Shown here in pieces: positions 2,014 through 40,061 of a DNA stretch of 42,955 nt. The translations under genes and the position numbers were made by a program. Under the pieces are notes generated by a model, which ran no database searches, was not told where the DNA came from, and saw only the letters and a program-made list of their open reading frames with translations. Each line of letters opens with the position of its first letter. Position 1 is the first letter of the stretch. The stretch comes from Sphingobacteriales bacterium (lineage in GTDB: Bacteria; Bacteroidota; Bacteroidia; AKYH767-A; OLB10): NCBI GenBank assembly GCA_021299095.1, contig JAJTFW010000017.1, positions 1-42,955 on the forward strand, given 5' to 3'.

Positions 2014-2037
2014 CACGAAACTTTTATTTATCACAAC

Positions 2038-2356: not shown

Positions 2357-2430
2357 GCACCCGTAGTTCAATTGGATAGAATGACAGATTCCGATTCTGT
2401 TGGTTGTGGGTTCGAGTCCCGCCGGGTGCA
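2357..2430 (+). tRNA. tRNA-Arg (anticodon CCG)
   Basis: The cloverleaf can be folded by hand. The acceptor GCACCCG (2357-2363) pairs with CGGGTGC (2423-2429) and the discriminator is A. The D stem is GTTC/GAAT, the anticodon stem ACAGA/TCTGT has loop TTCCGAT, and the anticodon CCG is at 2391-2393 (reads CGG). The T arm is GTGGG-TTCGAGT-CCCGC. The 3' CCA is not encoded. A TACTTTTG box at 2270-2277 could be its promoter, but no -33 element is evident. Confidence 0.93.
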
Positions 2431-2440
2431 CGATGAGTCA

Positions 2441-2470
2441 CAGGCCGTTGCGTAGCAACGGCCTGTTTTT
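2441..2470 (+). terminator. Terminator of the tRNA-Arg transcript
   Basis: An 11-bp perfect stem (2441-2451 with 2455-2465) with loop GTA is followed by a T run (2466-2470). It lies 10 bases after the tRNA, so the tRNA is probably a single-gene transcript. The remaining gap sequence on either side (2071-2356, 2471-2600) holds only a weak 7-bp inverted repeat at 2178-2201. Confidence 0.88.
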
Positions 2471-2543
2471 ATTGTGAGGGAATGAAGTGACGTTTTACGC
2501 TCGTCTTGCAACGGTATACGGATTTCGAATTGCCCAAGTCTAA

Positions 2544-4235
<1,692 letters not shown>

Positions 4236-4256
4236 GCTTTTTTCTGAGGTCCGTCG

Positions 4257-4838
4257 TTAGCCTTCCCGGTGTTTACGGTAGGCGTCTGCCACTTCGCGAA
4301 GTTCCTGGTACCATTCGCTTCCATATTTACGCGTGAGTGCATCCTTCAGGAAGACATACAGCGGTACATCCAGTTTTTTTCCGAGTGAGCAGGCAGGAGC
4401 ACATATAGACCACTTGTGGTAATTTACGGCATCGTAGTGCGTGTGCTTCTCGATTCGAACCGGATATAAGTGGCAGGATACCGGTTTCCGGAATCCAATT
4501 CGCCCTTGGTTGTACGCTTTTTCAAATGCGCAAGTGGCAACTCCGTTTTCAAAAACGGTGTAAACACATTCGCGGTTACCATTGACCAGGGGTGTAACGC
4601 GATCGCCATCGGCATCCACCGTATGTAGTCCGATTTTATCAATTGACATCAGTGCTTCCGGCTGCAACATATCCCGAACTGCAGGAAAAGCGTTTTCAAT
4701 CTGTGCGAGTTCGTCTTCCTCCAGCGGCGCCCCGGAATCCCCCTCCACGCAGCAGGCGCCCTTGCAGCGCTCTAGGTCGCAAACAAAGGGGGTGTCAATC
4801 AGGTCAGTAGAAACCAGTGCGGATCCAATTTGCAGCAT
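4257..4838 (-). CDS. DUF3109 family cysteine-rich protein
   Basis: 193 residues starting MLQIGSALVS. Cysteines cluster at the N-terminus (C20, C25, C29, C30 in VCDLERCKGACC) and again in the C-terminal half (ATCAFEK, VSCHLYP, ICAPACSLG). This is the DUF3109 pattern, reminiscent of YkgJ-type zinc or iron-sulfur binding proteins; the metal and the reaction are not known. No signal peptide is seen, so it is probably cytoplasmic. It is convergent with the ABC-F gene (21-base gap) and divergent from the SOUL gene. A TACCTTTG box ends only 4 bases before the ATG, so the transcript may be leaderless. Confidence 0.9.
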   Translation of the reverse strand: MLQIGSALVSTDLIDTPFVCDLERCKGACCVEGDSGAPLEEDELAQIENAFPAVRDMLQPEALMSIDKIGLHTVDADGDRVTPLVNGNRECVYTVFENGVATCAFEKAYNQGRIGFRKPVSCHLYPVRIEKHTHYDAVNYHKWSICAPACSLGKKLDVPLYVFLKDALTRKYGSEWYQELREVADAYRKHREG

Positions 4839-4842
4839 ATGG

Positions 4843-4850
4843 CAAAGGTA
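4843..4850 (-). promoter_or_regulatory. Candidate -7 promoter box TACCTTTG for the DUF3109 gene
   Basis: Read on the minus strand this is an exact TAnnTTTG, the Bacteroidota sigma-ABfr -7 element, followed by CCAT and then the start ATG. No good -33 TTG is visible 17-23 bases upstream, which lowers confidence. Confidence 0.5.
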
Positions 4851-4892
4851 GTCGGCAATAAACCAGCAGGGCTATTCGTCTGTTAAACAAAT

Positions 4893-5495
4893 ATGAATCG
4901 CAAAAAAATGCTTCTCCTTTCCATCGCAGTGCTTTCTGTAATCTTTTTATTCTGGAATCTGCGCCTCAGTGCAGGCACCGAACAGCAGCCCTATCGGGTG
5001 TTGGATAAAGCCGATGGCTATGAAATCCGCTTATATCCGCCTGCAATGTTTGCGTCGGTCACCAAGTCTGGGCAAATGATGGATATCGGTAGTGATGGGT
5101 TTCGGGAACTTGCCGGTTACATTTTTGGCGGTAACTCCAGTGGCGAGAAGATTGCGATGACCGCACCAGTGGTTTTCTCGCCTGCAAAAGAGAACGAAGC
5201 AAGCACCGAGATGCGTTTTGTGATGCCCGCCGGGTATACGGCTGAGGCGCTGCCTGCACCACGTTCGAAGCAAGTGCAGCTCTGGGAGTCCGATACGGTA
5301 TTCATGGCCGTCAGACGTTTCGGTGGATTCGCATCAAACAAAGACATCGAGCGTGAAGCCGACGAATTGCGTGCTTGTTTACGCAAGGCTGGAATTGCTT
5401 TTGAAGACAAGGTGGTGTTTATGGCCTATAATCCGCCGTACCAGCTGGCAGGTCGGCGCAATGAAGTGGCCTTTGTGGTTCAACCAAGCCAATAA
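4893..5495 (+). CDS. SOUL family heme-binding protein
   Basis: 200 residues. The N-terminus MNRKKMLLLSIAVLSVIFLFW is a membrane anchor or uncleaved signal, so the protein is probably exported. The body is a SOUL domain, recognisable from YEIRLYPPAMFASV, the Gly-rich GYIFGGNSSGEKIAMTAPV segment and the C-terminal VVFMAYNPPY. SOUL proteins (p22HBP type) bind heme or tetrapyrroles; the bacterial role is not settled. It is single and divergent from DUF3109, with a strong terminator just downstream. Confidence 0.9.
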   Translation: MNRKKMLLLSIAVLSVIFLFWNLRLSAGTEQQPYRVLDKADGYEIRLYPPAMFASVTKSGQMMDIGSDGFRELAGYIFGGNSSGEKIAMTAPVVFSPAKENEASTEMRFVMPAGYTAEALPAPRSKQVQLWESDTVFMAVRRFGGFASNKDIEREADELRACLRKAGIAFEDKVVFMAYNPPYQLAGRRNEVAFVVQPSQ

Positions 5496-5508
5496 GGTCC
5501 CATAAAGT

Positions 5509-5534
5509 CAAAAGCCCGGCGAGCCGGGCTTTTG
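5509..5534. terminator. Bidirectional terminator between SOUL and DUF4382 genes
   Basis: An 11-bp perfect stem (5509-5519 with 5524-5534) has loop CGAG and is flanked by A and T runs on its two arms. It serves the convergent genes ending at 5495 (+) and 5556 (-). Confidence 0.88.
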
Positions 5535-5555
5535 AACTTCAGTGTGAATCAGTCA

Positions 5556-6347
5556 TCAGAGGTTTACCGCTCCAACGTTGGTGACCTGTCCGTTGGTTAC
5601 GTTCACGTTTTGGATGGTATCACCGATCCAGGGAGCCGGAGGCGCAACAACGACCGTGTAGTTGCCGGCTGGAACTGCGGGGATGATGAATCCTCCTGTT
5701 GAATCACTGAATGAACCAAATAGGTTGGTGCCATCGCTGGCGGTAATGGTACAAATCACAGAGTCCGGTACAATGGAGCCGGCAATCGCTCCACTGACAG
5801 CCTGGTCCACGACACGGATGACCGGCTTGAGGATGTATCGGCCGTTTCCGGTCTGTACGATAGACTGTTGAGCGTCAAAATCCAGCAGAACCACATACGC
5901 TACACCTGCAGAAAAGTCGCGGTGTACCTGCAACTTGAGCCCCGATTGCTGCGCACTTGGGGTCGATAAAGGATAGGTGACGCTGTCAACCACCACCGAA
6001 TTGTTGGGGCCTAGGATTACCCTAACCTGTTCGATTTTACCAGCAGGCACTGGGCCTCCGGCAATGAGTGTATCGGTTCCGTTGACGAAATCCAATAGGT
6101 TGTAAATACCTGCGTTGACCGGCAGGTTGAGGGTGCCGATCTGAGGCCCCTTGATCTCAACACCCTGAACATCAACATAAACTGCGTTGAAGTTTCCAGG
6201 GGCATCGGTCATGCGGATAGAAAGCAGGGCCTTGCCAGGTTTGATCTCGTTGCTGGAGGAAGCACCCTCTTCGGGCTTGGAGCAGGAGGAAAGCAGGAAG
6301 GCGAAGCCGGTACACAGTCCGGCAATGGCAAAAAGCAGTTTTTTCAT
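5556..6347 (-). CDS. DUF4382 domain lipoprotein
   Basis: 263 residues from the ATG at 6347, chosen over the in-frame ATG at 6368 because it gives a clean lipoprotein signal: MKKLLFAIAG, a hydrophobic core, then LLSSC with the acylated Cys at 22. Residues ~35-165 match the DUF4382 pattern (ALLSIRMTDAPGNFNAVYVDV, then VRVILGPNN). The last ~75 residues resemble a carboxypeptidase-regulatory-like beta sandwich (SGAIAGSI...GGFIIPAVPAGNYTVVV). It should be anchored in an envelope membrane; ligand and function are unknown. It is divergent from prs across a gap with a large inverted repeat. A TATTTTTG box at 6371-6378 on the minus strand could be its promoter. Confidence 0.9.
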   Translation of the reverse strand: MKKLLFAIAGLCTGFAFLLSSCSKPEEGASSSNEIKPGKALLSIRMTDAPGNFNAVYVDVQGVEIKGPQIGTLNLPVNAGIYNLLDFVNGTDTLIAGGPVPAGKIEQVRVILGPNNSVVVDSVTYPLSTPSAQQSGLKLQVHRDFSAGVAYVVLLDFDAQQSIVQTGNGRYILKPVIRVVDQAVSGAIAGSIVPDSVICTITASDGTNLFGSFSDSTGGFIIPAVPAGNYTVVVAPPAPWIGDTIQNVNVTNGQVTNVGAVNL

Positions 6348-6392
6348 GGTGAATAGTTCTTTTGACAAGGCAAAAATAAGCTAGTTGGAGCC

Positions 6393-6444
6393 AAAGCACC
6401 TGTTTCTCCGTGAATTTTCACGACTGATTTTCAACAGGTGCTTT
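6393..6444. repeat. 12-bp inverted repeat with nested hairpin between divergent genes
   Basis: AAAGCACCTGTT (6393-6404) pairs perfectly with AACAGGTGCTTT (6433-6444). The 28-base interior carries a second palindrome, CGTGAA-TT-TTCACG (6409-6422). It sits upstream of both the DUF4382 gene and prs, outside the likely prs promoter. It could be an operator or a transcript hairpin; no copy was noticed elsewhere in the window. Confidence 0.7.
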
Positions 6445-6480
6445 TCAGGCCCCGGAGGGTGGAAGTTCCGTGCTTTTCTA

Positions 6481-6511
6481 TTTGACAATCTGTGCTTTTT
6501 TTGTTTCTTTG
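6481..6511 (+). promoter_or_regulatory. Promoter of prs
   Basis: TTTG (6481-6484), a 19-base spacer and TTTCTTTG (6504-6511) match the Bacteroidota TTTG-N17-23-TAnnTTTG promoter at all but one key base. The start codon lies 25 bases downstream. Confidence 0.6.
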
Positions 6512-6536
6512 CAGCCCCTTAAAAGGCGGGAAATCC

Positions 6537-7472
6537 ATGGCACGTCAGGTGAAAATATTCTCAGGAACAGCTTCCAGGTACCTGGCGGAGCAAATTGCCG
6601 ACAGTTATGGTTCGTCCCTGGGCGATGTCAAGGTGGCCCGTTTTAGCGATGGAGAATTTTCGCCCAGTTTTGATGAGAGTGTACGCGGATGCGATGTGTT
6701 TTTAATTCAAAGCACGTTTTCACCCACCGATAACCTTTTCGAACTATTGCTGCTAATCGATGCCGCCAAGAGGGCTTCTGCTCATTACATCACGGCCGTA
6801 ATACCCTACTTCGGGTATGCGCGTAGTGACCGGAAAGACAAACCAAGGGTGGCAATTGCCTCCAAAATGGTAGCGAATTTGCTGAGTGCGGCCGGAGTTA
6901 CCCGCGTAATGACCATGGATCTCCATGCTCCTCAGATTCAGGGATTCTTTGATGTGCCCGTAGATCACCTCGATGCTTCGGCCATTTTCGTGCCCTACAT
7001 CAAAACCCTCGACCTACCCAACATGATGATTTGCGCTCCCGATATGGGCGGCGTGCACCGGGCAAGGACGTATGCCTCTTATTTCAATGCCGACATGGCC
7101 ATCATTGACAAACACCGTAAGCGTGCCAACGAAATCGAAGGCATGCAGGTGATTGGCGACGTGTCGGGCCGTGATTGCATCCTGGTGGATGACATTGTCG
7201 ATACAGCGGGCACCCTCACCAAGGCCGCAAGTCTGTTGGTTGATCGTGGTGCTGCCAGTGTACGTGCATTTTGTACCCATCCTGTACTCAGTGGCCAGGC
7301 TTACGAGCGAATTGCCGATTCACACCTTACAGAGGTTGTGGTTTGTGACACAATTCCGCTGCGTAAGGATGCCAAGAAAATCAAGCAACTCCCTACCGCT
7401 CAGTTGTTCGCAAAGGCAATTCAGCGTGTGTATGCCTACGAATCCATCAGTTCACTCTTTGTAAAAGAATAA
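6537..7472 (+). CDS. prs: Ribose-phosphate pyrophosphokinase
   Basis: 311 residues from the ATG at 6537; a longer in-frame start at 6492 would overlap the predicted promoter. It makes PRPP from ribose 5-phosphate and ATP for nucleotide, histidine and tryptophan synthesis in the cytoplasm. Diagnostic segments are RFSDGEFSP near the N-terminus, the DLHAPQIQGFFD binding region, the flexible-loop region YFGYARSDRKDKPR, and the PRPP motif CILVDDIVDTAGT. Length fits the family. It is followed after 14 bases by rplY and is probably cotranscribed with rplY and pth. Confidence 0.97.
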   Translation: MARQVKIFSGTASRYLAEQIADSYGSSLGDVKVARFSDGEFSPSFDESVRGCDVFLIQSTFSPTDNLFELLLLIDAAKRASAHYITAVIPYFGYARSDRKDKPRVAIASKMVANLLSAAGVTRVMTMDLHAPQIQGFFDVPVDHLDASAIFVPYIKTLDLPNMMICAPDMGGVHRARTYASYFNADMAIIDKHRKRANEIEGMQVIGDVSGRDCILVDDIVDTAGTLTKAASLLVDRGAASVRAFCTHPVLSGQAYERIADSHLTEVVVCDTIPLRKDAKKIKQLPTAQLFAKAIQRVYAYESISSLFVKE

Positions 7473-7486
7473 TCCCAGAAATACCA

Positions 7487-8062
7487 ATGAAAACGTTTGA
7501 AATCCAAGCCGCCTTGCGTCCCGACTTGACCAAGCAAAGCGTTAAGGCCATCCGTAACGGCGAAGGTGTGCCCTGCGTACTCTACGGTACCGGTTCAGAT
7601 CCCGTGCATTTTTCCGCACCCCTCAGTGCCTTCAAAGGCCTGGTGTACACCCCCGATGTGTATATGGTGAAGCTGATCGTCGACGGTAAAGAGCATCAGT
7701 GCATTCTCCAGGACATCCAGTTCCATCCTGTTACCGACATCATCCAGCACGCCGATTTCCTTGCCGTGAGCAACGATCGTCCGGTGACCATCCATATTCC
7801 GGTGCGCATCACCGGAGCCTCTGAAGGCGTGAAGCAGGGTGGCAAGCTCGTGACCAAAGTGCGCAAGCTGAAGGTGAAAGCCTTGCCCGCAAAACTTCCC
7901 GATTCAGTAGCGGTGGATATTACGCCTCTCAAGATCGGTGATGACGTACGCGTGCGTGATCTCAGCCTCGAGGGTGTTACCTTCCTGGATTCCCCATCGA
8001 ATGTTATCGTGGGTGTGCGTACCACACGTAACGTGGTTGCAGCCGCCGAGACGAAGAAATAA
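7487..8062 (+). CDS. rplY: 50S ribosomal protein L25/general stress protein Ctc
   Basis: 191 residues, the long (CTC/TL5) form: an N-terminal L25 domain that binds 5S rRNA (EIQAALRPDLTKQSVKAIRNGEGVPCVLYG) and a C-terminal beta domain (PVTIHIPVRITGASEGVKQGGKL, then VDITPLKIGDDVRVRDL). The 14-base gap after prs and the 69-base gap before pth give the common bacterial order prs-rplY-pth, supporting an operon. Confidence 0.97.
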   Translation: MKTFEIQAALRPDLTKQSVKAIRNGEGVPCVLYGTGSDPVHFSAPLSAFKGLVYTPDVYMVKLIVDGKEHQCILQDIQFHPVTDIIQHADFLAVSNDRPVTIHIPVRITGASEGVKQGGKLVTKVRKLKVKALPAKLPDSVAVDITPLKIGDDVRVRDLSLEGVTFLDSPSNVIVGVRTTRNVVAAAETKK

Positions 8063-8081
8063 TCCTGATCGGACCTGCTTA

Positions 8082-8109
8082 GAGAGGAACCCCGATGGCG
8101 GTTCCTCTC
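8082..8109 (+). other. Intergenic hairpin between rplY and pth
   Basis: A 10-bp perfect stem (8082-8091 with 8100-8109) with an 8-base loop lies between the two genes. There is no T run after it, so it may protect or partly attenuate an operon transcript rather than terminate it. Confidence 0.4.
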
Positions 8110-8131
8110 GGCATTTGATGACCTTTCACGC

Positions 8132-8695
8132 ATGAAATACCTCATCGTCGGACTGGGCAATATCGGGCCTGAGTATGTGCATACCCGGCACAACATCGGT
8201 TTCGATGTGGCGGATGCCTTAGCCAAATCGCTGGATGTTTCTTTCAGCAGCGACCGAAAAGTCTGGAAAGCAGAAGGAAGGTTTAAGGGACGGAGTCTTG
8301 TCATTATCAAGCCCACCACTTTTATGAACTTGAGCGGTGAGGCTGTAAGGTATTGGCTCGGATTTCTGAAAATTCCCCAAGAAAATCTGTTAATTGTAAC
8401 CGATGATCTCGCCCTTCCGTTCGGCACCCTTCGCCTCAGACCTTCGGGTGGTGCTGCCGGTCACAACGGGTTGACGAGTATCATTGAGTGTATTGGTAAT
8501 GAACGTTTTGCGCGCTTGAGATTTGGAATAGGCAACGATTACCCCAAGGGTCGACAAGCCGATTATGTGCTCGGCCACTGGACCACGGAAGAGGCTTCAG
8601 CCCTGACCGGAAGGGTGGAAACCGCGGTAGAAATCGTTAAGACCTTTGCAAGTACAGGCATACAGGCGGCCATGAACGCCTACAACAACAAATAA
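8132..8695 (+). CDS. pth: Peptidyl-tRNA hydrolase
   Basis: 187 residues. It releases peptides from prematurely dissociated peptidyl-tRNA. All key residues are visible: N10 in GLGNIGPEY, catalytic H20 in TRHNIGFDVAD, the TTFMNLSGEAV segment holding the substrate-binding Asn, and VTDDLALPFGTLRLRPSGGAAGHNG with the Asp that activates the His. It ends just upstream of the small T9SS gene. Start ATG at 8132. Confidence 0.97.
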   Translation: MKYLIVGLGNIGPEYVHTRHNIGFDVADALAKSLDVSFSSDRKVWKAEGRFKGRSLVIIKPTTFMNLSGEAVRYWLGFLKIPQENLLIVTDDLALPFGTLRLRPSGGAAGHNGLTSIIECIGNERFARLRFGIGNDYPKGRQADYVLGHWTTEEASALTGRVETAVEIVKTFASTGIQAAMNAYNNK

Positions 8696-8720
8696 TCATG
8701 GCAGGATTCTTGCTCAAGAG

Positions 8721-9098
8721 ATGAACGAAAAAATGGTGAAAAGCATGAAAAAGATCCTCTACTCCTCCATTGCATGCATTTGTCTTTCTTTCTTTTCTCA
8801 ATCTGCTTTAGCGCAGCATGATGAGCGGCTGTCGGCGAAAGGGCGCGATTGCAGCATCTCCATGTATCCTAACCCAACCACCAGCCGTTTGTTCATCGAC
8901 CTTGGTCAACCCACCGTTACTGAGCCGGCTGTCTTGATTTTCGATATGCTGGGAAATAAAATGGATGGACTTTATCCCGAACGTAAGGACCCACAAACTT
9001 GGATGGTGGATTTCAGTGGAATCAAACCCGGTTTCTATTTCGTCAAGATCCGTACTTCCGAGGAGTCAATCTCCCGCCGGATCACCATCAATCCCTGA
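8721..9098 (+). CDS. Tiny secreted protein consisting almost only of a T9SS sorting domain
   Basis: 125 residues from 8721; an in-frame ATG at 8745 (117 residues) fits a signal peptide better. Residues MKKILYSSIACICLSFFSQSALAQ form a signal peptide. Only about 20 residues separate the cleavage site from a full type A sorting domain (ISMYPNPTTSRLFID, then DMLGNKM, KPGFYFVKIRT, SRRITINP). The protein therefore carries the address label but essentially no cargo. Such short proteins could be free CTDs, decoys or remnants of a larger gene. It follows pth by 25 bases and is convergent with aspS (6-base gap). Confidence 0.85.
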   Translation: MNEKMVKSMKKILYSSIACICLSFFSQSALAQHDERLSAKGRDCSISMYPNPTTSRLFIDLGQPTVTEPAVLIFDMLGNKMDGLYPERKDPQTWMVDFSGIKPGFYFVKIRTSEESISRRITINP

Positions 9099-9104
9099 TT
9101 CTCC

Positions 9105-10859
9105 TCAAGACGTTTTTTCACTGATGGCGATGCCCAATTCATCCAGCTGAGCGGATTGAATCGGAGATGGGGCGTCAATCATAACATCGCGCCCCGAATT
9201 GTTCTTCGGAAATGCAATGAAATCGCGGATGCTTTCTGATCCACCGAATAAGGAACACAACCTGTCGAATCCGAAAGCGATACCTCCATGTGGAGGAGCG
9301 CCAAACTCGAAGGCGTTCAGCAGGAAACCGAACTGGCTCTGAGCCTCTTCTTCACTGAATCCCAGCAAACTGAACATCCGTTTCTGTAATCCCTTGTCGA
9401 AAATGCGGATACTGCCCCCACCCACTTCTACACCGTTGATGACTATGTCATAGGCATTGGCGCGAACCGCACCGGGATCCGAATCCAGCAGATGCAAATC
9501 TTCGGGAAGGGGCGACGTGAAGGGGTGGTGCATCGCAAACCAGCGCCCCGATTCCTCATTCCATTCAAGCAACGGGAAATCTACCACCCATAGACAGCTA
9601 TACTGGTCTTTGGGACGTAAACCGAGTCGCTCTCCCATTTCCAGCCTGAGTTCTGATAGGGCTTTCCGGGTCCTTGCTGCATCACCGGCCAAAATCAGCA
9701 ATAAATCGCCAGGTTCTGCTCCCATCGCTTCAGCCCAACCGCGTAGTTCTTCGGCCGAGTAAAATTTGTCGACACTGGATTTCAAACTTCCATCGCTGCC
9801 GTATTTAACATAGACAAGACCGTTAGCTCCGATTTGCGGACGTTTCACAAAGTCGGTCAGTTCGTCGGTTTGCTTTCGCGTGTATTCGGAACATCCTTTG
9901 GCGCAAATACCCGCTACCAGTGCTGCATCATCAAATACCTTGAAGCCCTTACCTTTTACAAGTCCGTCAAGTTCAACGAAGGTCATGCCGAAGCGTGTGT
10001 CTGGCTTGTCCGATCCGTACAAGCGCATCGCATCGGCATAGCTCATACGTGGTAGTGAGGCGAGGTTCAGGCCTTTTACCGTGTTAAAAAGGTGTGCTGT
10101 AAGTCCTTCGAAGGTGGAAAGGACATCGTCACGCTCCACGAAACTCATCTCGCAGTCGATCTGAGTGAACTCCGGCTGGCGGTCAGCACGGAGGTCCTCA
10201 TCGCGAAAACACTTTACAATCTGATAGTAGCGGTCGAATCCGGCTACCATGAGCAATTGCTTGAATGTTTGTGGGGATTGAGGCAGGGCATAGAACTCGC
10301 CCGGATTCATGCGGGATGGAACCACAAAGTCGCGGGCGCCTTCTGGCGTTGATTTAATCAGAACCGGTGTTTCAACCTCCAGAAATCCCATTTTATCCAG
10401 GTAATTCCGGGTTTCAATCGCCATACGATGGCGTAACTCCAAATTGGATCTTACATTGGATCGGCGTAGGTCAAGGTAACGATACCGCATCCTCAGGTCA
10501 TCTCCACCATCAGTTTGTTCTTCAATGGTAAACGGTGGTACCTCTGCCGCATTCAGGATGGTCAGGGTTTCAACGATGATTTCGATTTCACCTGTTGGCA
10601 GTTTGGAGTTTTTGCTTTCGCGCTCACGAACCATTCCGGTCGCCTGAACCACATATTCGCGACCCAAGGTTCGTGCCACAGAGCAAGGCTCGGGTCTGCT
10701 TTCCGAACTGAAAGCCAACTGCGTGATTCCGTAGCGATCGCGAAGGTCGACAAAGGTCATGCCCCCGAGGTCGCGGGAGCGCTGCACCCATCCGGAGAGG
10801 GTTACTGTAGTGCCGGCGTGACTCAGGCGCAATTCGCCGCAGGTATGTGTCCTGAACAT
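9105..10859 (-). CDS. aspS: Aspartyl-tRNA synthetase
   Basis: 584 residues, a bacterial-type class II enzyme. It has an N-terminal OB-fold anticodon-binding domain ([20 protein letters not shown]), motif 1 around [14 protein letters not shown], motif 2 in [19 protein letters not shown], an inserted GAD domain, and motif 3 [16 protein letters not shown] near the C-terminus. It charges tRNA-Asp in the cytoplasm. It is divergent from porZ with a 116-base gap. A TAACTTCG box at 10878-10885 on the minus strand is a possible promoter element. Confidence 0.98.
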
Positions 10860-10975
10860 GTGAATCGGATTGAAGCGCGAAGTTACTTCCTTTCGGGCGG
10901 CGGGCCCCCGTGGCGAGGGTTGATTTTCCCATCTTTGAGGAACAATAGTCGTCCGGTTTTAGCGTAGAATATCCA

Positions 10976-13309
10976 ATGAATCGCCAGTTGGTCCGAATTG
11001 CACTCCTTTCCGCTGTATTCATTCTCAATGCTTACCTGTGTCTTCGGGCTCAGCAGGCTGCAATCGGTAGTTGGCGGGAGCATCTTCCATATCACCGCGG
11101 ACTTCAGGTTGCTGTTGCGGCTGATCGGGTGTATTGTGTGACATCGGATGGCTTTTTCGCATACCAGCGCAGCGACGGACAATTGCTCAGGCTTTCACGC
11201 ATTAGCGGACTTAGCGATTTTGGCGTCAGCAAGATCGCCTATTGTCCAGCGGTTAAGGCCTTGGTTGCGGTATATGCCAATACGAACATCGACCTGATTT
11301 ACGATGATGGCAGGGTGGTGAATCTCAGCGATATCAAACGGAAAAATATTCCCGGCAACAAGGTGGTTAACAGCATCCATATACGTGGCGACCAAGCCTA
11401 TCTGGCCTGCGGTTTTGGAATCGTTTCTTTGAACCTATCTCGTCGCGAAGTGACCGATACCTATGCCATCACATCTGGCGTTTCTCCCGATATCCTCTCC
11501 GTAGCTTCCGATGATACGGCCCTGTTTGCGGCCTGCGATGATGGGGTATATACCGCTCAGTTGAACAGCCCCTTGATTTCCAATTTCACGGGCTGGTCAA
11601 AAATCTTGGCCGATACAGGTAGTGTCGGTGATTTTCAGGAGGCCGTTTCCTTTGGTGGTGTACTCATCGTGAAATATCGGCGCAGCAGTGGTGATCAGCT
11701 ACTGGCATGGAACGGATTGGATTGGAATACAGGATTGCCCTCCGGTTTGCAAACCTTCAATACGCGATATAGCATGCGTAGCGATCTTAGCTACCTCTGC
11801 GTCACAGAGGAGTTTGGGTTCACCGTGTATGACAGATGGTTCAACCTCATCCGCACAGTGGGTACATCCTTGCTGGGTCAGCCTTTTCTGCGCGATGGGA
11901 TGCTTGATGCCGGCGGACAAATTTGGCTTGCCGATAATCTAAAAGGAATGCTGCTAGTCGATCAGGCCAATACAAGCTGGGAAAAGATTGCTCCCAGAGG
12001 TCCGTTTTCTTCGCGCAATGCTGCAATGCAGGTGGTGAATGGAACCTTGTGGACCTTGCATGGCCCACGGAATCGCAATTGGAGTAATGCTTACCGTTAC
12101 GATGGTTTTTCCCGATGGAATGGTACCGACTGGATTACTTACGACGGATACGCAGCACAAACTCCGTTCTTTCAGGCACGGAATTTCTTTGACAACATGT
12201 CATTGGTTGTAGATCCTTCCGATAAAGAACACCTCTTCATCGGGTCTGCCGGAGCCGGTATGATGGAGTTTCGCAATGGTGATACCGTCCGTTTTCATGA
12301 CACCATCAATTCACCACTTCAGGCTCAGGTAGGGAATCCCACTCAGTATAAAGTGCATGGTATCGCACTCGACAATGACCGCAATCTTTGGGTAACGAAT
12401 TCGGGAACGCCCTCCGTCATAAAAGTCCTACGTACCAATGGAACTTGGAAGACGTTCAGTTTGGCCGGCGCAGTAAACTCATCGGCCAATACCGGCGATA
12501 TGGTCCTGGATGCATCCGGAGCCGCATGGGTTGTGTTATTTGGTAATGTCGGCGGAAAAGAGGGCTTACTCTACTACGATGCAAAAGGAACGGTAGACAA
12601 TGTTTCGGACGATAGCTACAAGGTGATTGACTTTGCCTCCAACCGTGTTCGCTGCCTTGCCCGCGATCGCGATGGAACCATATGGGTGGGAACAGATGTG
12701 GGGATCTATGTTTTTTATCCACCTTCTTTGACACCCCAGCAGATTCTGATTCGTCAAAACAATACCAACCAATATCTGCTTTCAGGCGAGGCGGTAACGG
12801 CAATCGCCGTTGATGCGGCCAACCGCAAGTGGATTGGTACGGAAACCGGAGGTCTCTATTTGTTTTCGGCCGACGGCCAGGAGCAGGTCCGGCATTTCAC
12901 CGTCGCAGGGAGTCCTCTGTTTTCCGATAATATCACCAGTCTTGCCATAGATGGTCGATCCGGTGAGGTATACATCGGTACCGAAAAAGGGCTGATGAGT
13001 TACCGAAGCGATGCCATCGAACCCGATCCTGAAGTGCTGGGCTGTAAGGATCTGCTTGTATACCCCAATCCGGTTACAAGTACTTACACCGGCCCCATCG
13101 CGATTCGTGGTTTGGTGCCCAATGGCTCAGTGCGCATCACAGATATTGCAGGTGGTTTGGTGTATCAGACAGAAGCACAGGGAACACAAGCTGTTTGGAA
13201 CGGGCAGGATCTGAACGGGAATTTGGTTGCTTCGGGTGTCTATATGGTGATGGCCTCTGATGAGGCGGGGGAGTTTGGCTGTGTTACCAAAGTCCTGATT
13301 ACGCGATAA
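10976..13309 (+). CDS. porZ: PorZ-like type IX secretion attachment-complex protein
   Basis: 777 residues, close to the P. gingivalis PorZ length. A signal peptide (MNRQLVRIALLSAVFILNAYLCLRAQQ) is followed directly by IGSWREHLPYHRG, typical of the PorZ beta-propeller start. Two propellers of WD/two-component-regulator type follow, with repeated short strands such as TIWVGTDVGIYVF, RKWIGTETGGLYLF and GEVYIGTEKGLMSY. The C-terminal ~90 residues form a CTD-like domain (LLVYPNPVTS, then SGVYMVMASD). In the known system PorZ sits on the cell surface with PorU, PorV and PorQ and delivers A-LPS during cargo attachment. PorU/V/Q are not in this window. It may be a related propeller protein, but the N-terminal sequence favours PorZ. 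Confidence 0.85.
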   Translation: MNRQLVRIALLSAVFILNAYLCLRAQQAAIGSWREHLPYHRGLQVAVAADRVYCVTSDGFFAYQRSDGQLLRLSRISGLSDFGVSKIAYCPAVKALVAVYANTNIDLIYDDGRVVNLSDIKRKNIPGNKVVNSIHIRGDQAYLACGFGIVSLNLSRREVTDTYAITSGVSPDILSVASDDTALFAACDDGVYTAQLNSPLISNFTGWSKILADTGSVGDFQEAVSFGGVLIVKYRRSSGDQLLAWNGLDWNTGLPSGLQTFNTRYSMRSDLSYLCVTEEFGFTVYDRWFNLIRTVGTSLLGQPFLRDGMLDAGGQIWLADNLKGMLLVDQANTSWEKIAPRGPFSSRNAAMQVVNGTLWTLHGPRNRNWSNAYRYDGFSRWNGTDWITYDGYAAQTPFFQARNFFDNMSLVVDPSDKEHLFIGSAGAGMMEFRNGDTVRFHDTINSPLQAQVGNPTQYKVHGIALDNDRNLWVTNSGTPSVIKVLRTNGTWKTFSLAGAVNSSANTGDMVLDASGAAWVVLFGNVGGKEGLLYYDAKGTVDNVSDDSYKVIDFASNRVRCLARDRDGTIWVGTDVGIYVFYPPSLTPQQILIRQNNTNQYLLSGEAVTAIAVDAANRKWIGTETGGLYLFSADGQEQVRHFTVAGSPLFSDNITSLAIDGRSGEVYIGTEKGLMSYRSDAIEPDPEVLGCKDLLVYPNPVTSTYTGPIAIRGLVPNGSVRITDIAGGLVYQTEAQGTQAVWNGQDLNGNLVASGVYMVMASDEAGEFGCVTKVLITR

Positions 13310-13316
13310 ACAAAAA

Positions 13317-13350
13317 AGCGAACCCCGAGGAGTTCGCTCTTGCGTTTTTT
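13317..13350. terminator. Terminator between porZ and the small membrane protein gene
   Basis: AGCGAAC (13317-13323) pairs with GTTCGCT (13332-13338), with an A run before and CTTGCGTTTTTT after it. It lies 8 bases after the porZ stop and before the convergent gene ending at 13363. Confidence 0.7.
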
Positions 13351-13362
13351 CGAAAGAGGGGA

Positions 13363-13545
13363 TTATCCTTTGTATGACATGTAATTGTCTCCGCCGCGGC
13401 GTACCTTGGCGTCATACCATAGCCAATAGGAAGTTCCGACAGCGATCGTGAGGCCGAACATCCAGTTCAATAAAGCGCCGATGGAAGGGAGGAGTCCGAA
13501 GATGGGTTGCATTGCGTCAGCGATACCGTAGAAGACCTGCGTCAT
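13363..13545 (-). CDS. Small membrane protein, DUF6341-like
   Basis: 60 residues. There is a single clear hydrophobic segment (LLNWMFGLTIAVGTSYWLWY, about residues 25-44), preceded by an amphipathic start (MTQVFYGIADAMQPIFGLLP) and followed by a short polar tail (DAKVRRGGDNYMSYKG). The layout and the YW motif resemble the DUF6341 family, and a DUF6427 gene lies divergently 56 bases away, a pairing I recall from Flavobacteria. It is a real gene rather than a chance frame: it has its own terminator and no overlap with another gene. Function unknown. Confidence 0.68.
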   Translation of the reverse strand: MTQVFYGIADAMQPIFGLLPSIGALLNWMFGLTIAVGTSYWLWYDAKVRRGGDNYMSYKG

Positions 13546-13601
13546 GTTTTTCCTGTATTTTGGGGACGAATTTACATAAAATCCCCAATCAAGTCCCTTT
13601 T

Positions 13602-14588
13602 ATGCTAGTCCGGATTTTCAGGTCTACCTCTCTACTTCCACCGGTCTTGCTTTTTTTGCTTGCGGGTCTGGCCATGGTGGCAACTTTACCCGTTTTTTCT
13701 CCGGCTGTCTCCGAAAATGGTTTGTACCTCTACGATTCATTGGTCAGAGCACTTGGATACCTACCAACTTGGTGCACTGCCCTATGCTCTTCCCTGCTGA
13801 TCTTTGGTCAGGCTGTTCATCTTAACATCGTATTAAATAAGCACAGTGTACAGTTCAAGGCATCCTGGCTGCCTGCTTTGCTATACCTCGTTTTAGCGAG
13901 TCTGCTAGTGCCAGTTCATGGATTTAGCCCGGTGACAATTGTAAATACCCTGCTGATTTTCGTGCTCGACAAATTATTTGGATTGTACAAGAACCCCACA
14001 GCCTGGGGAATGATTTTCGATGCAGCACTTCTGCTGTCGATCGCAGCCTTGGTTTATTTGCCAGTCTCAGTGCTATTTGTGTACCTCTTCATCGCTCTGG
14101 CCTTACTTCGACCTTTGTCGTGGCGTGAATGGATCATTGGGCTAATGGGATTGGCAGCTCCTTTCTTTTTTCTATTCGTGTACCTGTTTCTGAATGATAG
14201 TCTTCAGGTATTCCTGAACACGGTCCTGATTCCCGGCATTCGAATCGAGCCGCACAGTGGTCAGGTGTTTCGCTCAGGCCAGCTGATTAGCCTGATTGTC
14301 GTTGCGGTGTTTTTTCTGATGTCGGTCCTTAACGCTCAGTCGAATTACTACCGCAACGTAGCCAAGACCCGGGTTGCGCAACAACTGTTGTTAATCTTGG
14401 TGCCTTTCACATTGCTCACCTTGTGGGTTGCTCCGGATGCAGCAGCCTATCGTGTTGGATTGATGATCATCCCACTGGCTGTTTTCCTTTCCTATTTTTT
14501 TCTGGCCGGAAAAAAATCCTGGCTTATGGAATTGTATTTTCTAGCGTTGATTGGCGTTTGGGTCTGGAATCGCCTTATGCCGTCCTGA
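13602..14588 (+). CDS. DUF6427 family integral membrane protein
   Basis: 328 residues from the ATG at 13602; the in-frame extension to 13512 would run through the divergent gene and lacks family character. It has about nine hydrophobic segments, starting MLVRIFRSTSLLPPVLLFLLAG, with short loops such as KNPTAW and LRPLSWREWIIGLMG, typical of DUF6427. It is an inner-membrane protein of unknown function. Its 3' end overlaps the convergent PH-like gene by 14 bases. Confidence 0.85.
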   Translation: MLVRIFRSTSLLPPVLLFLLAGLAMVATLPVFSPAVSENGLYLYDSLVRALGYLPTWCTALCSSLLIFGQAVHLNIVLNKHSVQFKASWLPALLYLVLASLLVPVHGFSPVTIVNTLLIFVLDKLFGLYKNPTAWGMIFDAALLLSIAALVYLPVSVLFVYLFIALALLRPLSWREWIIGLMGLAAPFFFLFVYLFLNDSLQVFLNTVLIPGIRIEPHSGQVFRSGQLISLIVVAVFFLMSVLNAQSNYYRNVAKTRVAQQLLLILVPFTLLTLWVAPDAAAYRVGLMIIPLAVFLSYFFLAGKKSWLMELYFLALIGVWVWNRLMPS

Positions 14589-15081
14589 TCATTTCGTTCG
14601 CAGCCTCAACAAAGGCTTCAGGGTCCTCCGGGCTGAAAATCACTGGGAGACTTTCACGCAGTTGAATGACGACAAGTCCTGTTCTTCTGCTGCAATACCA
14701 ACTTTGTTGGCCTAAAGACGGCGAGTAATAACGACCTGTATAACCGAAAAGACCACCGTTTCCGAAGGTCCTGATCAGACCTTTCGTTTCGGCAGCATCC
14801 ATCTTTCGGATGAGTAGCAGTTTTTCTAGTTGGAATTTCTTTAGCCCGACCATTCTTCTTACTGCAATCCCATCGGATTGAATCAAATATTCCTTTGGCG
14901 CGTAGAGCAGACAAGCTCCGCTCAAAACAAGCATAAGTAAGGCTGCAGCAACCAGGCTGCTTCGGCTTTCTTCAGGTGAAACAAAAGTCAAAACCAGCAT
15001 CACGACAGCGCCGGCCGGAACAGCATTGCTGACTATTCTTGAAAAGAAGTCACTTGTGCAAGTGAATGTTCTTGTGATCAT
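14575..15081 (-). CDS. Membrane-anchored bacterial PH-domain-like protein
   Basis: 168 residues. Two hydrophobic segments (VPAGAVVMLVLTFV and VAAALLMLVLSGACLLY) are followed by a cytoplasmic beta domain (YLIQSDGIAVRRMVGLKKFQLEKL, then GLFGYTGRYYSP and GLVVIQLRESLPVIFSPEDPEAFV). The GLFGYTGRYY and SPEDPEAFV pieces fit the bPH-type (PF10882-like) domain. Role unknown. It lies downstream of nothing on its strand and overlaps the end of the DUF6427 gene. An 8-base gap separates it from the M1 peptidase gene upstream, so it is probably cotranscribed with that gene. Confidence 0.8.
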   Translation of the reverse strand: MITRTFTCTSDFFSRIVSNAVPAGAVVMLVLTFVSPEESRSSLVAAALLMLVLSGACLLYAPKEYLIQSDGIAVRRMVGLKKFQLEKLLLIRKMDAAETKGLIRTFGNGGLFGYTGRYYSPSLGQQSWYCSRRTGLVVIQLRESLPVIFSPEDPEAFVEAANEMIRTA

Positions 15082-34698: not shown

Positions 34699-35820
34699 TT
34701 ATTCCCACCGGAAAAAGCGTACGGCTAGCGCATACACCAGTAATCCCCAGGCAGCAACAATCAACACAGGTAGCCAGAGCTGATCTGGTCCAGCTCCATC
34801 GTAAGCGACAAGCCTTAGTGCATTATTTAGGTAAGTCAACGGAAGTATTTTGCAGATGGGTTGAAGCCATTCTGGAAAATTCTCGATACCGAAGAAGGTT
34901 CCGGAGAGGAGGAATTGTGGAAGTGTAATCAGGTTGGCCAGTGGGGGGATGGTGCTTTCGCTTTTGGCCAGACCGGAAACAAGGAATCCGAAACCCATGA
35001 AGACAATCAAACCAAGGGCAGAGAGCCCGAGCATGGCAAGGAATGTACTGAGGCCATTCACTAACGTGAATCCGAACGCAAAATGACCCACAGCAATCAG
35101 GAAGCAGGCTCCGCTGAGCGAAAAAACCAATCGGCTGAGTGCTTCACCCATGACGATATAAGGCCGCCGAATCGGTGTAGCGAAGAATCGCTTGACAACC
35201 AGCGTCTGTCTGAGGTTAAAAAATACAAATGCCGTTCCGAACACCCCCGAACTTAGCAGTGAAAACCCGAGCTGTCCAGGCAGAATGAAGTCAATGGTGC
35301 GGTACTCGCGCGATTGTATCACCTTTTGTGAAATGGATGCGAGTCGTTGCTGAGGTTGCATTGCATCGAGACTGGCTTTATCGACTAGGTGCTCAAGCAT
35401 CGATCGCAGGATGACCGCACCCTCACCACCTGTCACTGCTGTGGTCAGTTCAAGTCGATAGGCAGAGCTGTCACCTGAATCGCTTTTGATCAGCCGTACG
35501 ATTCCGTCAATATTCCCTTTTCGCAACTGTTCAAGTTGCACTTCGGCATCGGATTCAGGGATAAGATTGATTCCCGGCTGAGCCGATAACACATCGAAGA
35601 GACGGTTCTGGGTATCGCTTCGCAGATCAAGTCCGACATCGAGTTGTACTCCGCCACCCCGTATGAATCCGAATACAAGTATAAAGATCAGGGGGAATAG
35701 CAAGGTGAATATGACCGCAGACGGACTTCTAAGCATGGAACGCAGGCTCGCCTTGCTAATGGCCAGCATCGCTTTCCACTGAGAATAATGTGCGTGATTC
35801 TTCGGGTTTGAAGGTTCCAT
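34699..35820 (-). CDS. ABC-2 type exporter permease
   Basis: 373 residues. A short cytoplasmic start is followed by a first transmembrane helix (PSAVIFTLLFPLIFILVFGFI). A ~150-residue extracytoplasmic region comes next, then five helices including TAFVFFNLRQTLVVKRFFATPIRRP-type coupling sequence and LANLITLPQFLLSGTFFGIENFPEWLQPICKILPLTYLNNALR, which is diagnostic of ABC-2 (YhhJ/DrrB-like) permeases. It starts 15 bases after the stop of the ATPase gene, forming a two-gene operon. The substrate is unknown. Confidence 0.93.
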   Translation of the reverse strand: MEPSNPKNHAHYSQWKAMLAISKASLRSMLRSPSAVIFTLLFPLIFILVFGFIRGGGVQLDVGLDLRSDTQNRLFDVLSAQPGINLIPESDAEVQLEQLRKGNIDGIVRLIKSDSGDSSAYRLELTTAVTGGEGAVILRSMLEHLVDKASLDAMQPQQRLASISQKVIQSREYRTIDFILPGQLGFSLLSSGVFGTAFVFFNLRQTLVVKRFFATPIRRPYIVMGEALSRLVFSLSGACFLIAVGHFAFGFTLVNGLSTFLAMLGLSALGLIVFMGFGFLVSGLAKSESTIPPLANLITLPQFLLSGTFFGIENFPEWLQPICKILPLTYLNNALRLVAYDGAGPDQLWLPVLIVAAWGLLVYALAVRFFRWE

Positions 35821-35835: not shown

Positions 35836-36594
35836 TTATTCTTCAGTCCAGGCGTGACCTGTCAGGTTAAGAAACACATCTTCCAAGCTTGCTTTACGTA
35901 CCTCGCGGGGGCGCTCGAATCCACTCGCAACCAATTTGTCTATCAACTTCTCAGGTGAATCGATGGAAATGATTTTGCCCGAGTCCATGATGGCCACCCG
36001 GTCGCACAGTTGTTCTGCTTCATCCATGTAGTGGGTTGTGATGACCACAGTGGTTCCCTCGTCCCGCACTTTTCGGATCAGGTCCCACAGGTTTCTGCGC
36101 GCCTGCGGATCAAGACCGGTTGTAGGCTCGTCCAAAAAAATGATGGAGGGCTTATGGATGAGTGTAGTGGCGATGCTGAATCGCTGCTTCTGCCCGCCGC
36201 TCAGCTCCTTGAACCGTGATTTGCGTTTTTCTTCCAGGCCGACACTTTTCAGTAAGGCTTCTGCATCCACCTGCATGTTGTATAATCCGGCAAACAGGCC
36301 GATGAGCTCGGTAAGCGTCAGACTAGGGTAATATCCAGCAGCCTGCAATTGCACGCCGATAATGCGTTTGATGGAGTCCGCATCGCGGTCGATGTCATGC
36401 CCGGCGACGTGTACGCTACCGGCTGACTTTTCCCGAAGTGTCTCGATGATTTCCAGTGTGGTTGTTTTGCCTGCACCGTTAGGCCCAAGGAGTCCGAAAA
36501 TCTCCTGTTTGTATACCTCGAAGGAAATACCCTTCACTGCCTCGAACGAGCCGTAGCGTTTGACGAGTCCGTTGACACGAATGACCGGTTCCAT
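35836..36594 (-). CDS. ABC exporter ATPase (drug/polysaccharide-type)
   Basis: 252 residues. Walker A is GPNGAGKT (37-44), signature LSGGQKQRFS, Walker B IIFLDEPTTGLDPQARR and the switch His is in VVITTHYMDEAEQL. The C-terminal tail ASLEDVFLNLTGHAWTEE is typical of CcmA/DrrA-like ATPases. It is the partner of the ABC-2 permease downstream. A TATATTTG box ends 5 bases before the ATG, suggesting a leaderless transcript. Confidence 0.94.
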   Translation of the reverse strand: MEPVIRVNGLVKRYGSFEAVKGISFEVYKQEIFGLLGPNGAGKTTTLEIIETLREKSAGSVHVAGHDIDRDADSIKRIIGVQLQAAGYYPSLTLTELIGLFAGLYNMQVDAEALLKSVGLEEKRKSRFKELSGGQKQRFSIATTLIHKPSIIFLDEPTTGLDPQARRNLWDLIRKVRDEGTTVVITTHYMDEAEQLCDRVAIMDSGKIISIDSPEKLIDKLVASGFERPREVRKASLEDVFLNLTGHAWTEE

Positions 36595-36632: not shown

Positions 36633-37646
36633 CTAAAGTCTTACAATGACCGACAGGAGTACTGAGCGCGGAGCTTGCAGGTCGGCAGGTCGTGTCATGA
36701 ACTCCGTGTTGAATACATTTCGCACGTTAAGCATGATGGTGGCCCCATCGTTTAAGACATAGCCTGCACGCACATCGGCCAGCCATGAACCTTCGGGCTG
36801 CCGTTCCCGGTAGGACTTGACACCGGCAATTGCAAGCTCAAAGATTTTATCGATGTTTTCGATGCGGCTGTAATATCGTAGACTAAATCCGCCAATCCAT
36901 TTTCTGTAACGGCTTTCGCTGTCGAATTTGAACATATTGCGGAACCGGTATTTCAGGACGTTCTCCTTACTTGTATTGTAAATGGTATCGGTAGCCAGAT
37001 CGAAATCCGTTTGAACCGGATCAATCCAGGTGTATCCTCCGAGAATGCTTTGTTCCACTTGTCCGATTTTCCCCTGACCGGTAAGTGTCATTTCGAGCCC
37101 GGTAATGCGGGCGTTGCCGATGTTTACCGATCTAAACCCGAGACCTCCGAATGGATCCACAAAGGGATTACCCCACAAGCCGAAGCTGAATTCCATCATG
37201 TCTTGGTATTCCATCTGGAACAGGCTGAAATCGGCCATGCCTTTCCACGAGGAAATCGAGAGTAATTGCCTTACGCCGACTTCGCCCGACCAGCCTCGTT
37301 CGGGAAAGAGTGAATCGTTTGGATAAATGACGATATCTCCGACCCGCGTGCGCACGTATTGCTCAGCGATACTCGGGAAGCGAAAGCCCTGACCATACGA
37401 AGCCCGGACATAGCCGCCTTTCCAGGCCTCATAGTTCATACCCGTTCGAAACAGCAGCTGCGGATCGAATTGTTTTCCGGAGATGGATCCACCTTCAACC
37501 CGTGCACCCAGGCTGAGTTTCAGTTTCCCGAAAGAGCCATCACCCTGAAGGTAGCCTGCCATGTTGCTGCCGCGCTGCTTGTCGAACAATTCACCGGCGA
37601 CCCGTGTAGTGGACGCGCTAGCGCCGATTGTAAAGTCAATCGGCAT
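36633..37646 (-). CDS. TonB-dependent receptor, C-terminal part (split by frameshift)
   Basis: 337 residues of outer-membrane beta-barrel: GASASTTRVAGELFDKQ, LSLGARVEGGSISGKQFDPQLLFRTGMNYE, YVRASYGQGFRFPSIAEQYVR, then the end VRNVFNTEFMTRPADLQAPRS and LLSVIVRL. There is no signal peptide, so it cannot reach the outer membrane alone. Its first ATG (37646) lies 10 bases before the stop of the N-terminal part, in the +1 frame relative to it. Together the two parts (740 residues) make one receptor. About ten residues expected between them appear to be missing, so this is probably a disrupted gene or a sequence error rather than two genes. Confidence 0.85.
   Translation of the reverse strand: MPIDFTIGASASTTRVAGELFDKQRGSNMAGYLQGDGSFGKLKLSLGARVEGGSISGKQFDPQLLFRTGMNYEAWKGGYVRASYGQGFRFPSIAEQYVRTRVGDIVIYPNDSLFPERGWSGEVGVRQLLSISSWKGMADFSLFQMEYQDMMEFSFGLWGNPFVDPFGGLGFRSVNIGNARITGLEMTLTGQGKIGQVEQSILGGYTWIDPVQTDFDLATDTIYNTSKENVLKYRFRNMFKFDSESRYRKWIGGFSLRYYSRIENIDKIFELAIAGVKSYRERQPEGSWLADVRAGYVLNDGATIMLNVRNVFNTEFMTRPADLQAPRSVLLSVIVRL
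37623..37644. repeat. 8-bp inverted repeat at the receptor frameshift junction
   Basis: GCCGATTG (37623-37630) and CAATCGGC (37637-37644) are perfect inverted copies around a 6-base loop TAAAGT. The premature TGA of the N-terminal part lies inside this hairpin. Confidence 0.75.
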
Positions 37647-38847
37647 AAAACACTTCTGATCGAGATCCTTGGGCGGTATTGTTGGTGTTGTTGCTGAGAA
37701 AATACCGTGTTTTCAACTTATGGATCCATGGCCCACTCGTGTAAGTTAAATACGGATCGAATGTGAAGCGGTCGGATGTGTACGTGCTCAGCGTGCCTCC
37801 AAATGGAAGTAATGCGCCTGTCGTATCGTTTTGCCAAATCAGAAAACTACCTCCTTTCGCACGTTGTGCATTAACGGCCAGTCCGGCAGTAAGCCCGCTC
37901 AGCTTTTCTATCGGAAAGCGGACATGTGCATTCGCTCGAACACGTTCTTCCGTTTCCCCTTCCCGGTATCCGCGGTCGTTCACGTATTGTCCGCCACTGA
38001 CCAATGCAACTTTACCGAAGCGTTGCCGATGCGAGAGGCTGAAGCCGCTTGTCATGCGTGCTTCATCCCACCAACGCATACGCACATCCGAAGGTTGATC
38101 ATAAGCGCCAACGAAGGCATTGATGAGGGTAAGGGCCGTGTCGCCAGGCATCGCAGTACGCAGGTTAATAACGCCGTTTAGTGCCGATGATCCGAATAGG
38201 GCAGACGAGGCGCCTTTGAGTACTTCGGCCTGCTCCATTTGTTCCACGGGGATGAAGTTCCACTTCACATCGTTGGCATCCCCGGCCAGCATGGGCAGGT
38301 CATCCACCAGCACCAATACACGCGATCCGGCACCGTAGCTGAATCCACTTCCTCCGCGGATATTCGCTTGTCCATCGATAACGGTGACGCCCGGTACTTG
38401 TTCTACAGCGGTTTCGATGGTGTTGTCGGCCCGTCTTTCAAGCAGCTGTTGTGGCAGTACGTCCATCGAAGTGACCGTTTCCTCAATCCGTTGCCTACTA
38501 CGGTTGCCTGTAATGACAATCTGCCGGAAATCCAGCATATCGGGTGCGAGCAAAATATCCAGTTCGACCAGCTCGCCCGGAGCCAGGTCCAGAAGTCTTG
38601 ACTCCGATTTGTATGAGATGTAATTAAAAAGCAACACGAATTTTCCGGCAGGGAGCACAAGTTTGAATCGCCCTTCCTGATCGGTCTGCACACCATGCTT
38701 CCGGTCGGCCGACATGACCGTCGCGAAAGGCAGGGGCTCGCGGGTTTTTTCATCCCTAACCCTTCCTTTCAGGGTTGCATCCTGTGCCTGGCTGAAGGTC
38801 GACAAGGCCAATAGTACAGTGATAAGCGAATACAAACGTTTAAGCAT
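37636..38847 (-). CDS. TonB-dependent receptor, N-terminal part (split by frameshift)
   Basis: 403 residues. After a signal peptide (MLKRLYSLITVLLALSTFSQAQ) comes a carboxypeptidase-regulatory-like domain (LKGRVRDEKTREPLPFATV, to LDILLAPDM), then a plug domain (IRGGSGFSYGAGSRVLVLVDDLPML, then EVLKGASSALFGSSALNGVINLRT) and the first barrel strands. It stops early at EVFYAD-TGA, in the middle of the barrel; the continuation is in the next frame. The full receptor would import a siderophore, vitamin or similar ligand with TonB energy; no substrate clue is present. It is divergent from dprA. Confidence 0.88.
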   Translation of the reverse strand: MLKRLYSLITVLLALSTFSQAQDATLKGRVRDEKTREPLPFATVMSADRKHGVQTDQEGRFKLVLPAGKFVLLFNYISYKSESRLLDLAPGELVELDILLAPDMLDFRQIVITGNRSRQRIEETVTSMDVLPQQLLERRADNTIETAVEQVPGVTVIDGQANIRGGSGFSYGAGSRVLVLVDDLPMLAGDANDVKWNFIPVEQMEQAEVLKGASSALFGSSALNGVINLRTAMPGDTALTLINAFVGAYDQPSDVRMRWWDEARMTSGFSLSHRQRFGKVALVSGGQYVNDRGYREGETEERVRANAHVRFPIEKLSGLTAGLAVNAQRAKGGSFLIWQNDTTGALLPFGGTLSTYTSDRFTFDPYLTYTSGPWIHKLKTRYFLSNNTNNTAQGSRSEVFYAD

Positions 38848-38924: not shown

Positions 38925-40061
38925 GTGTCTGAAGTGCTTTTATCTTCGTCATGCACGGAACAGGAATTGCTGGCCCGTATCGCCCTCTCCTTCCTTCCTG
39001 CAGTAGGACCTGTGCTAACGCGGGCACTTGTTGGACATTGCGGTTCCGCCGAGGCGGTGTTCAGGGAGAAACGTAGCCTACTGGCACGCATTCCGGGTTT
39101 AGGCGCCCGCAGGGTTGCCAAAGCATTTTCCGAACCGGTATTTCCGCTTGCCGAGCGTGAGCTTGCATTCATCCGTCGGCACCGCATCACCCCAATTTTC
39201 TTTACCGACGCATTATATCCGCAACGACTTATCCATTGTCATGATGCTCCAGCCTTGTTGTATTCCAAGGGGAGTATCGACTACAATGCGGGCCGCTTCG
39301 TAGCCTTGGTTGGTACCCGGCATGCGACCGATTACGGTGCATCCTGCGTAGAGACGTTGGTTGCAGGGCTTGCACCCTATGGCGTGTGTGTTGTTAGCGG
39401 ATTGGCGTATGGCATTGATATACGTGCCCACCAGTCAGCGCTCGACCAGGGATTATCGACCATCGGCGTTACTGCGCATGGACTCGATCGAATTTATCCT
39501 CCAGCACACCGGGGCACAGCAAAAAAAATGATAGCGTGCGGGGGCTTGCTGACTGAATATCCGAGCGGGACACAGCCTGACCGGGAGAATTTTCCGTCCA
39601 GAAACCGCATTGTTGCCGGCATTAGCGATGCTGTAGTGGTTGTTGAGGCAGCCGAAAAAGGCGGCGCACTCATCACGGCCGATCTGGCCAACGGCTACGA
39701 CCGGGATGTGTTTGCCGTTCCTGGTCGGGTTGGTGATCTACGTAGCATGGGATGCAACCGGCTCATTCGCGAACACAAAGCCGCACTTATCACATCGGCC
39801 GAAGATTTGGTTTGGCTGATGGGGTGGAATGATGATAAGCCGGAGACGAAGCGGAAGGCTCAACAGATACAACTCTTTCCCGAGCTCAATCCTGAGCAAC
39901 AACGTATCGTTGATGTGCTTCGACAGATGGGTGAAAGCGGACAGGATGCTATTGCTTTTCACAGCGGAGTAACCCTTTCACGGATTTCGGGGGTGCTCCT
40001 TGAGCTCGAGTTGAATGGGGTTCTAAAACTACTTCCTGGCAAACGCTACCGATTGAATTGA
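38925..40061 (+). CDS. dprA: DNA-processing protein DprA
   Basis: 378 residues. The start is a GTG at 38925; the ATG at 38912 is in another frame. An N-terminal HhH/SAM-like region (LPAVGPVLTRALV, then IPGLGARRVAKAF) is followed by the Rossmann core with FVALVGTRHATDYG, VVSGLAYGIDIRAHQSAL, TEYPSGTQPDRENFPSRNRIVAG and EKGGALITADLANGYDRDVFAVPG. The C-terminus is a winged-helix domain (LNPEQQRIVDVLRQMGESG to the end). DprA loads RecA on incoming single-stranded DNA in transformation. Confidence 0.96.
   Translation: MSEVLLSSSCTEQELLARIALSFLPAVGPVLTRALVGHCGSAEAVFREKRSLLARIPGLGARRVAKAFSEPVFPLAERELAFIRRHRITPIFFTDALYPQRLIHCHDAPALLYSKGSIDYNAGRFVALVGTRHATDYGASCVETLVAGLAPYGVCVVSGLAYGIDIRAHQSALDQGLSTIGVTAHGLDRIYPPAHRGTAKKMIACGGLLTEYPSGTQPDRENFPSRNRIVAGISDAVVVVEAAEKGGALITADLANGYDRDVFAVPGRVGDLRSMGCNRLIREHKAALITSAEDLVWLMGWNDDKPETKRKAQQIQLFPELNPEQQRIVDVLRQMGESGQDAIAFHSGVTLSRISGVLLELELNGVLKLLPGKRYRLN

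Follow-up and report, generated by a model that had tools for sequence, protein, structure and literature searches.

The window analysed here (42,955 nucleotides) is an entire contig of its own genome, an assembly of 93 contigs that is 96% complete and 1.4% contaminated. It contains a gene for a TonB-dependent outer-membrane receptor that is divided between two reading frames. Judged by comparison with related sequences, the gene is probably an inactivated copy (a pseudogene or a loss-of-function allele), disrupted by a deletion of about 32 bases in the region coding for the barrel. Assembly permitting, the inactivation is probably an ordinary and recent one. If the lesion is real, a receptor retained by most relatives in the order has recently disappeared from this lineage. 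With respect to annotation, gene callers will list two proteins for what is one broken receptor.

Layout and setting of the split receptor gene

The split consists of two minus-strand ORFs in different frames, at positions 37636-38847 (403 aa) and 36633-37646 (337 aa), which overlap by 11 bases. The first comprises a signal-like N terminus (by eye), a CarboxypepD_reg-like domain, the plug and the first barrel strands, and terminates prematurely in the sequence SEVFYAD; Pfam places both CarbopepD_reg_2 (E 5.5e-16) and Plug (E 3.5e-21) within it. The second begins with MPIDFTIGAS, is read in the +1 frame relative to the first and accounts for the remainder of the β-barrel (TonB_dep_Rec_b-barrel, profile positions 161-436 of 436, E 3.6e-31); in the comparison with relatives it aligns directly after the N-terminal part. 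The overlap itself (37636-37646, minus strand) contains the premature TGA and the ATG of the second ORF and, in view of the residues missing relative to other species, represents the junction region of the putative deletion. This arrangement, in which an N-terminal part ends at EVFYAD-stop and a barrel follows in the +1 frame with an 11-base overlap, had been described by a sequence-only reading of the DNA and is seen both in the ORFs and in the Pfam matches. The plug in the first ORF and the barrel in the second both score above the gathering thresholds and occur in the order characteristic of a TonB-dependent receptor, but no continuous frame encodes the plug together with a full barrel. Because the gene occupies two frames and about 10 residues are gone, we class it as a broken rather than a working receptor.

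The neighbouring genes serve as anchors of synteny. Upstream and divergent lies dprA (38925-40061, plus strand; Pfam DNA_processg_A), which adjoins the receptor in the same manner in six of the relatives' loci (L038-L042 and L062, the last from genome G036). Downstream, on the minus strand, are an ABC transporter ATPase (35836-36594; ABC_tran) and an ABC-2 type permease (34699-35820; ABC2_membrane_3). These two genes, together with a Zn-peptidase, follow the receptor in two same-genus loci, L039 and L040. On the basis of this synteny, the window receptor is the orthologue of the receptor of the relatives, and intact syntenic orthologues, as expected for a loss of function, are thereby available for comparison.

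Intact orthologues and the missing residues

Both halves of the window receptor align, in order, to one single ORF of the relatives, such that the split is not a chance adjacency of two genes. The N half is 54-57% and the C half 56-61% identical to three single-frame receptors of the same genus. In a search at the order level (42 genomes, including the window's own), 37 genomes matched the N half at E <= 1e-75. Leaving aside the window's own genome, the frame continues past the junction in every one of the 36. The open frame measures at least 673 aa in 35 of them; in the remaining one (G009) it measures 495 aa and extends 64 residues beyond the junction, where the contig ends. In 28 of the 36 matches, both halves were observed in a single frame, and seven (G019, G029, G030, G034, G037, G039 and G041) were judged from the length of the open frame alone. 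The comparison with orthologues that the sequence-only reading had called for thus finds the frame of the relatives intact across the junction, and the two-gene split, which that reading had named as the sign of a genuine split gene, occurs in none of the 36. A conserved programmed frameshift or split gene is rejected on the same grounds.

Five of the 41 other genomes fall below this threshold. Three of these (G010, G018 and G026) have weak matches only, and a fourth (G025) has an open frame of 794 aa, yet its alignment is in two pieces. In the fifth, G036, the receptor is broken at a different place from that in the window: beside dprA on the minus strand of L062 (G036:C42:13500-18500), at approximately locus position 2580, some 20 residues are missing and the frame changes. 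A same-genus contig shows a different peculiarity: its receptor frame stays open through GCPDKDGD-type repeats until the contig stops (L038:7485-7760), which may reflect either a fusion or chimerism at that end of the contig.

At the class level, the N half was matched in 135 of 247 genomes at E <= 1e-60. Among the matches listed, paralogues included, three rows besides the window have an open frame shorter than 600 aa; the short frames of G251 and G210 belong to matches that end about 500 bases from the contig start. The third row, a related receptor in a genome of one contig (G097:C1:1411185-1412411), has an open frame of 557 aa and is perhaps another broken copy. Within its own genome, the window receptor is without a close paralogue; the most similar other protein is just 31% identical. 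At the DNA level the junction region occurs once in the assembly, and the best match elsewhere covers 27 bases (E 0.3).

Between the sequences corresponding to the two halves, relatives have a stretch of about 10 residues that is absent from the window. In an alignment of 34 rows with a single frame, drawn from 30 distinct contigs (four appear twice), the extra residues, counted beyond the opening residues of the second ORF, which were allowed for, number 8 in 26 rows, 9 in five, 7 in two and 10 in one; two of the rows (L033 and L044) rest on alignments that end short of the junction. The expectation of the sequence-only reading that the family has some ten more residues at this point is borne out by the alignment, and its preference for a small deletion with a change of frame gains support. 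A one-base slip is ruled out, since the 10 or so residues are missing as well, and the lesion lies outside homopolymers and tandem repeats. A deletion of about 32 bases fits the aligned sequences best. Its length corresponds to some 10 missing codons plus the shift of frame and is to be read as an estimate, since the three same-genus relatives are just 54-61% identical and the sequence that preceded the deletion is not recoverable from them.

The location of the missing residues was assessed on an AlphaFold2 model of the L040 orthologue, built from eight sequences and of medium confidence (mean pLDDT 61.5; 71 and 72 for residues 411-430, and below 50 for most of the plug, residues 110-238). 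They correspond to model residues 418-427, namely the second half of the strand 408-425 and the turn before the strand 428-443. Since half a strand and a turn are missing, a ribosome that switched frames would still produce a damaged barrel; on the model, ribosomal frameshifting would leave the barrel abnormal.

Origin and age of the break

In the proposed course of events, a deletion of about 32 bases in the barrel region would have placed the downstream part out of frame, with a stop right at the junction. Slippage or a misaligned template close to a small hairpin may have caused it. The truncated product would consist of the plug and approximately seven and a half barrel strands, as counted on the model, and would presumably be degraded rather than inserted into the membrane. 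Uptake via the receptor would then be lost, either in every cell or in one strain of the sampled population.

The hairpin in question is a perfect inverted repeat (37623-37644) whose 8-bp arms enclose a loop of 6 bases; the junction is situated inside it, and one of its arms lies within the ORF overlap. Inverted repeats with 8-bp arms (loop 3-10) are more numerous in the window (20) than in five mononucleotide shuffles (2-8) and cover about 1.1% of its bases; some of the 20 may be terminators. Three same-genus relatives were scanned over 90 bases around the matching place, and perfect inverted repeats there (loop 3-49) reach an arm length of at most 6 bp, in one of the three. Between 37400 and 37900 the window has short repeats only, the longest distant inverted pair having 9-base arms. 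The position of the repeat on the junction, a coincidence noticed post hoc, is suggestive of a role in the deletion, and a hairpin- or microhomology-assisted deletion is plausible. The hairpin was also considered as a regulatory structure and rejected as such: folded as DNA, it has a z of -0.22, and 78 of 200 shuffles fold equally well.

No further stops occur within the N half or the C half. Under free drift, about 45 would be expected in the N half and about 41 in the C half (about 87 in both) per substitution per site; their absence puts an upper limit of about 0.035 on the neutral substitutions per site since the loss (95% bound for zero events), if the pieces are unconstrained. In trees of each half, computed for the window and 14 chosen relatives, the root-to-tip distance of the N half (0.458) is similar to those of three same-genus tips (0.438, 0.446 and 0.482), with no acceleration, and that of the C half is slightly long (0.471, compared to 0.334, 0.313 and 0.438). 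The longer branch of the C half could represent ordinary loop variation or the onset of decay. The lack of extra stops and the normal branch of the N half indicate that the break is either recent or not real.

That the break is an artefact of assembly or consensus is possible but unlikely: the receptor would be intact in the organism, and a short stretch would have been lost, for example through a join of strain variants or at the hairpin. The fragmentation of the assembly into 93 contigs, the perfect 8-bp inverted repeat around the junction and the retention of the gene in most order-level relatives are compatible with such an error, and undecayed flanks fit it equally well as a recent loss. 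Against this, the lesion resembles a multi-base deletion rather than a homopolymer slip, and the other contigs contain no alternative copy of the region. The integrity of the contig as a whole was examined by tblastn of 36 window ORFs against same-genus DNA (L063, L064, L039 and L040). Of these ORFs, 24 were matched. In 22 cases a single alignment covered 70% or more of the ORF, these being the two receptor halves and 20 others; two more (w2565 and w15090) were matched in part, reflecting a paralogue and a contig edge, and the other 12 were unmatched. All 20 comparable ORFs are whole, which argues against general indel trouble. Positions 1-15000 are without a syntenic relative among the compared DNA. 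A Pfam scan of nine ORFs (eight starting before 15100 and one at 26408) gave family matches for seven and none for two, and no sign of a split was seen in the seven.

Among the three origins that the sequence-only reading had entertained, which also included an error of sequencing or assembly, recent inactivation, whether fixed or polymorphic, fits best, and phase variation finds no support at the junction. Phase-variable or population-level switching, with the off state assembled and selection exerted, for example, by phage or nutrients, appears very improbable. TonB-dependent receptors are known phage receptors, and the receptor of G036, a relative from another family, carries an independent frame-changing deletion elsewhere in the gene. 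Nevertheless, that genome alone shows a break among the 41 others of the order (three with weak matches only), and such a deletion is not easily undone. The junction has no tandem repeat; the nearest weak array, a 9-base unit present twice at 37675-37693, lies about 30 bases away. No reversible switch element, be it a repeat tract, an invertible segment or a second cassette, was found among the repeats of 37400-37900 or in a search of the window's own assembly. Site-specific inversion needs larger arms than 8 bp around 6 bases.

The order-level genomes that possess the receptor number 39 (the 37 matches, G025 and G036), and two of these, the window's own and G036, bear independent lesions in it. 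Two lesions in one gene may reflect chance, assembly trouble or recurrent loss. The last of these, whereby short deletions repeatedly remove a receptor that is a liability (for example, in phage entry) or dispensable in a given niche, and the loss in the window is recent and possibly polymorphic, we regard as a rather unlikely account. Hardly credible is a functional split, maintained by +1 frameshifting at the TGA or by coupled re-initiation of the second ORF at the overlapping ATG. The 11-base overlap with an ATG just ahead of the stop and the small hairpin at the junction would suit such a mechanism, but the same split occurs in no relative examined, a frame-shifted product would still be without half a barrel strand and a turn, the C half when made separately starts without a signal-peptide-like sequence (by eye), and the folding of the junction, as DNA, is no better than that of shuffles.

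Comparison with known receptors

The subfamily of the receptor was assessed with NCBIfam models, and none of those listed reaches its cut-off on either half. The SusC/RagA subfamily (TIGR04056) is rejected, with 101.8 bits for the N half against a cut-off of 368.25 and the C half not among the listed matches. Likewise, the vitamin B12 receptor (TIGR01779) is rejected: the halves, scored apart, obtain 68.8 and 63.5 bits compared to the required 599.7, and their sum is still far below it. The branch of BtuB, CirA and heme receptors is recognizable in the models TonB-B12, TonB-hemin and TonB-hemlactrns, which match both halves far under their cut-offs. The enterobacterial receptors of this branch are not known to have an N-terminal CarboxypepD_reg-like domain. 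Searches of PDB sequences with the N half and with a six-sequence profile gave matches mainly in the N-terminal domain, the plug and the first strands, and the profile also produced a few weak matches to the FhuA barrel; the C half had no match at E 0.001. The plug region of the window resembles those of the solved Colicin I receptor and BtuB chains. Within the part of the literature returned by our search, no paper was found that joins TonB-dependent receptors, pseudogenes, frameshifts and Bacteroidetes, and among the matches listed for the first three terms no title concerns the window receptor.

Like the TonB-dependent receptors with a CarboxypepD_reg-like domain (PF13715, PF07715 and PF00593), the window receptor possesses all three domains in order, and it has single-frame orthologues. 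Unlike the working receptors of this type, its barrel is interrupted by the putative frame-changing deletion. With bacterial pseudogenes produced by short frame-changing deletions, from which no difference is apparent, it shares a single lesion, open flanks and intact syntenic relatives.
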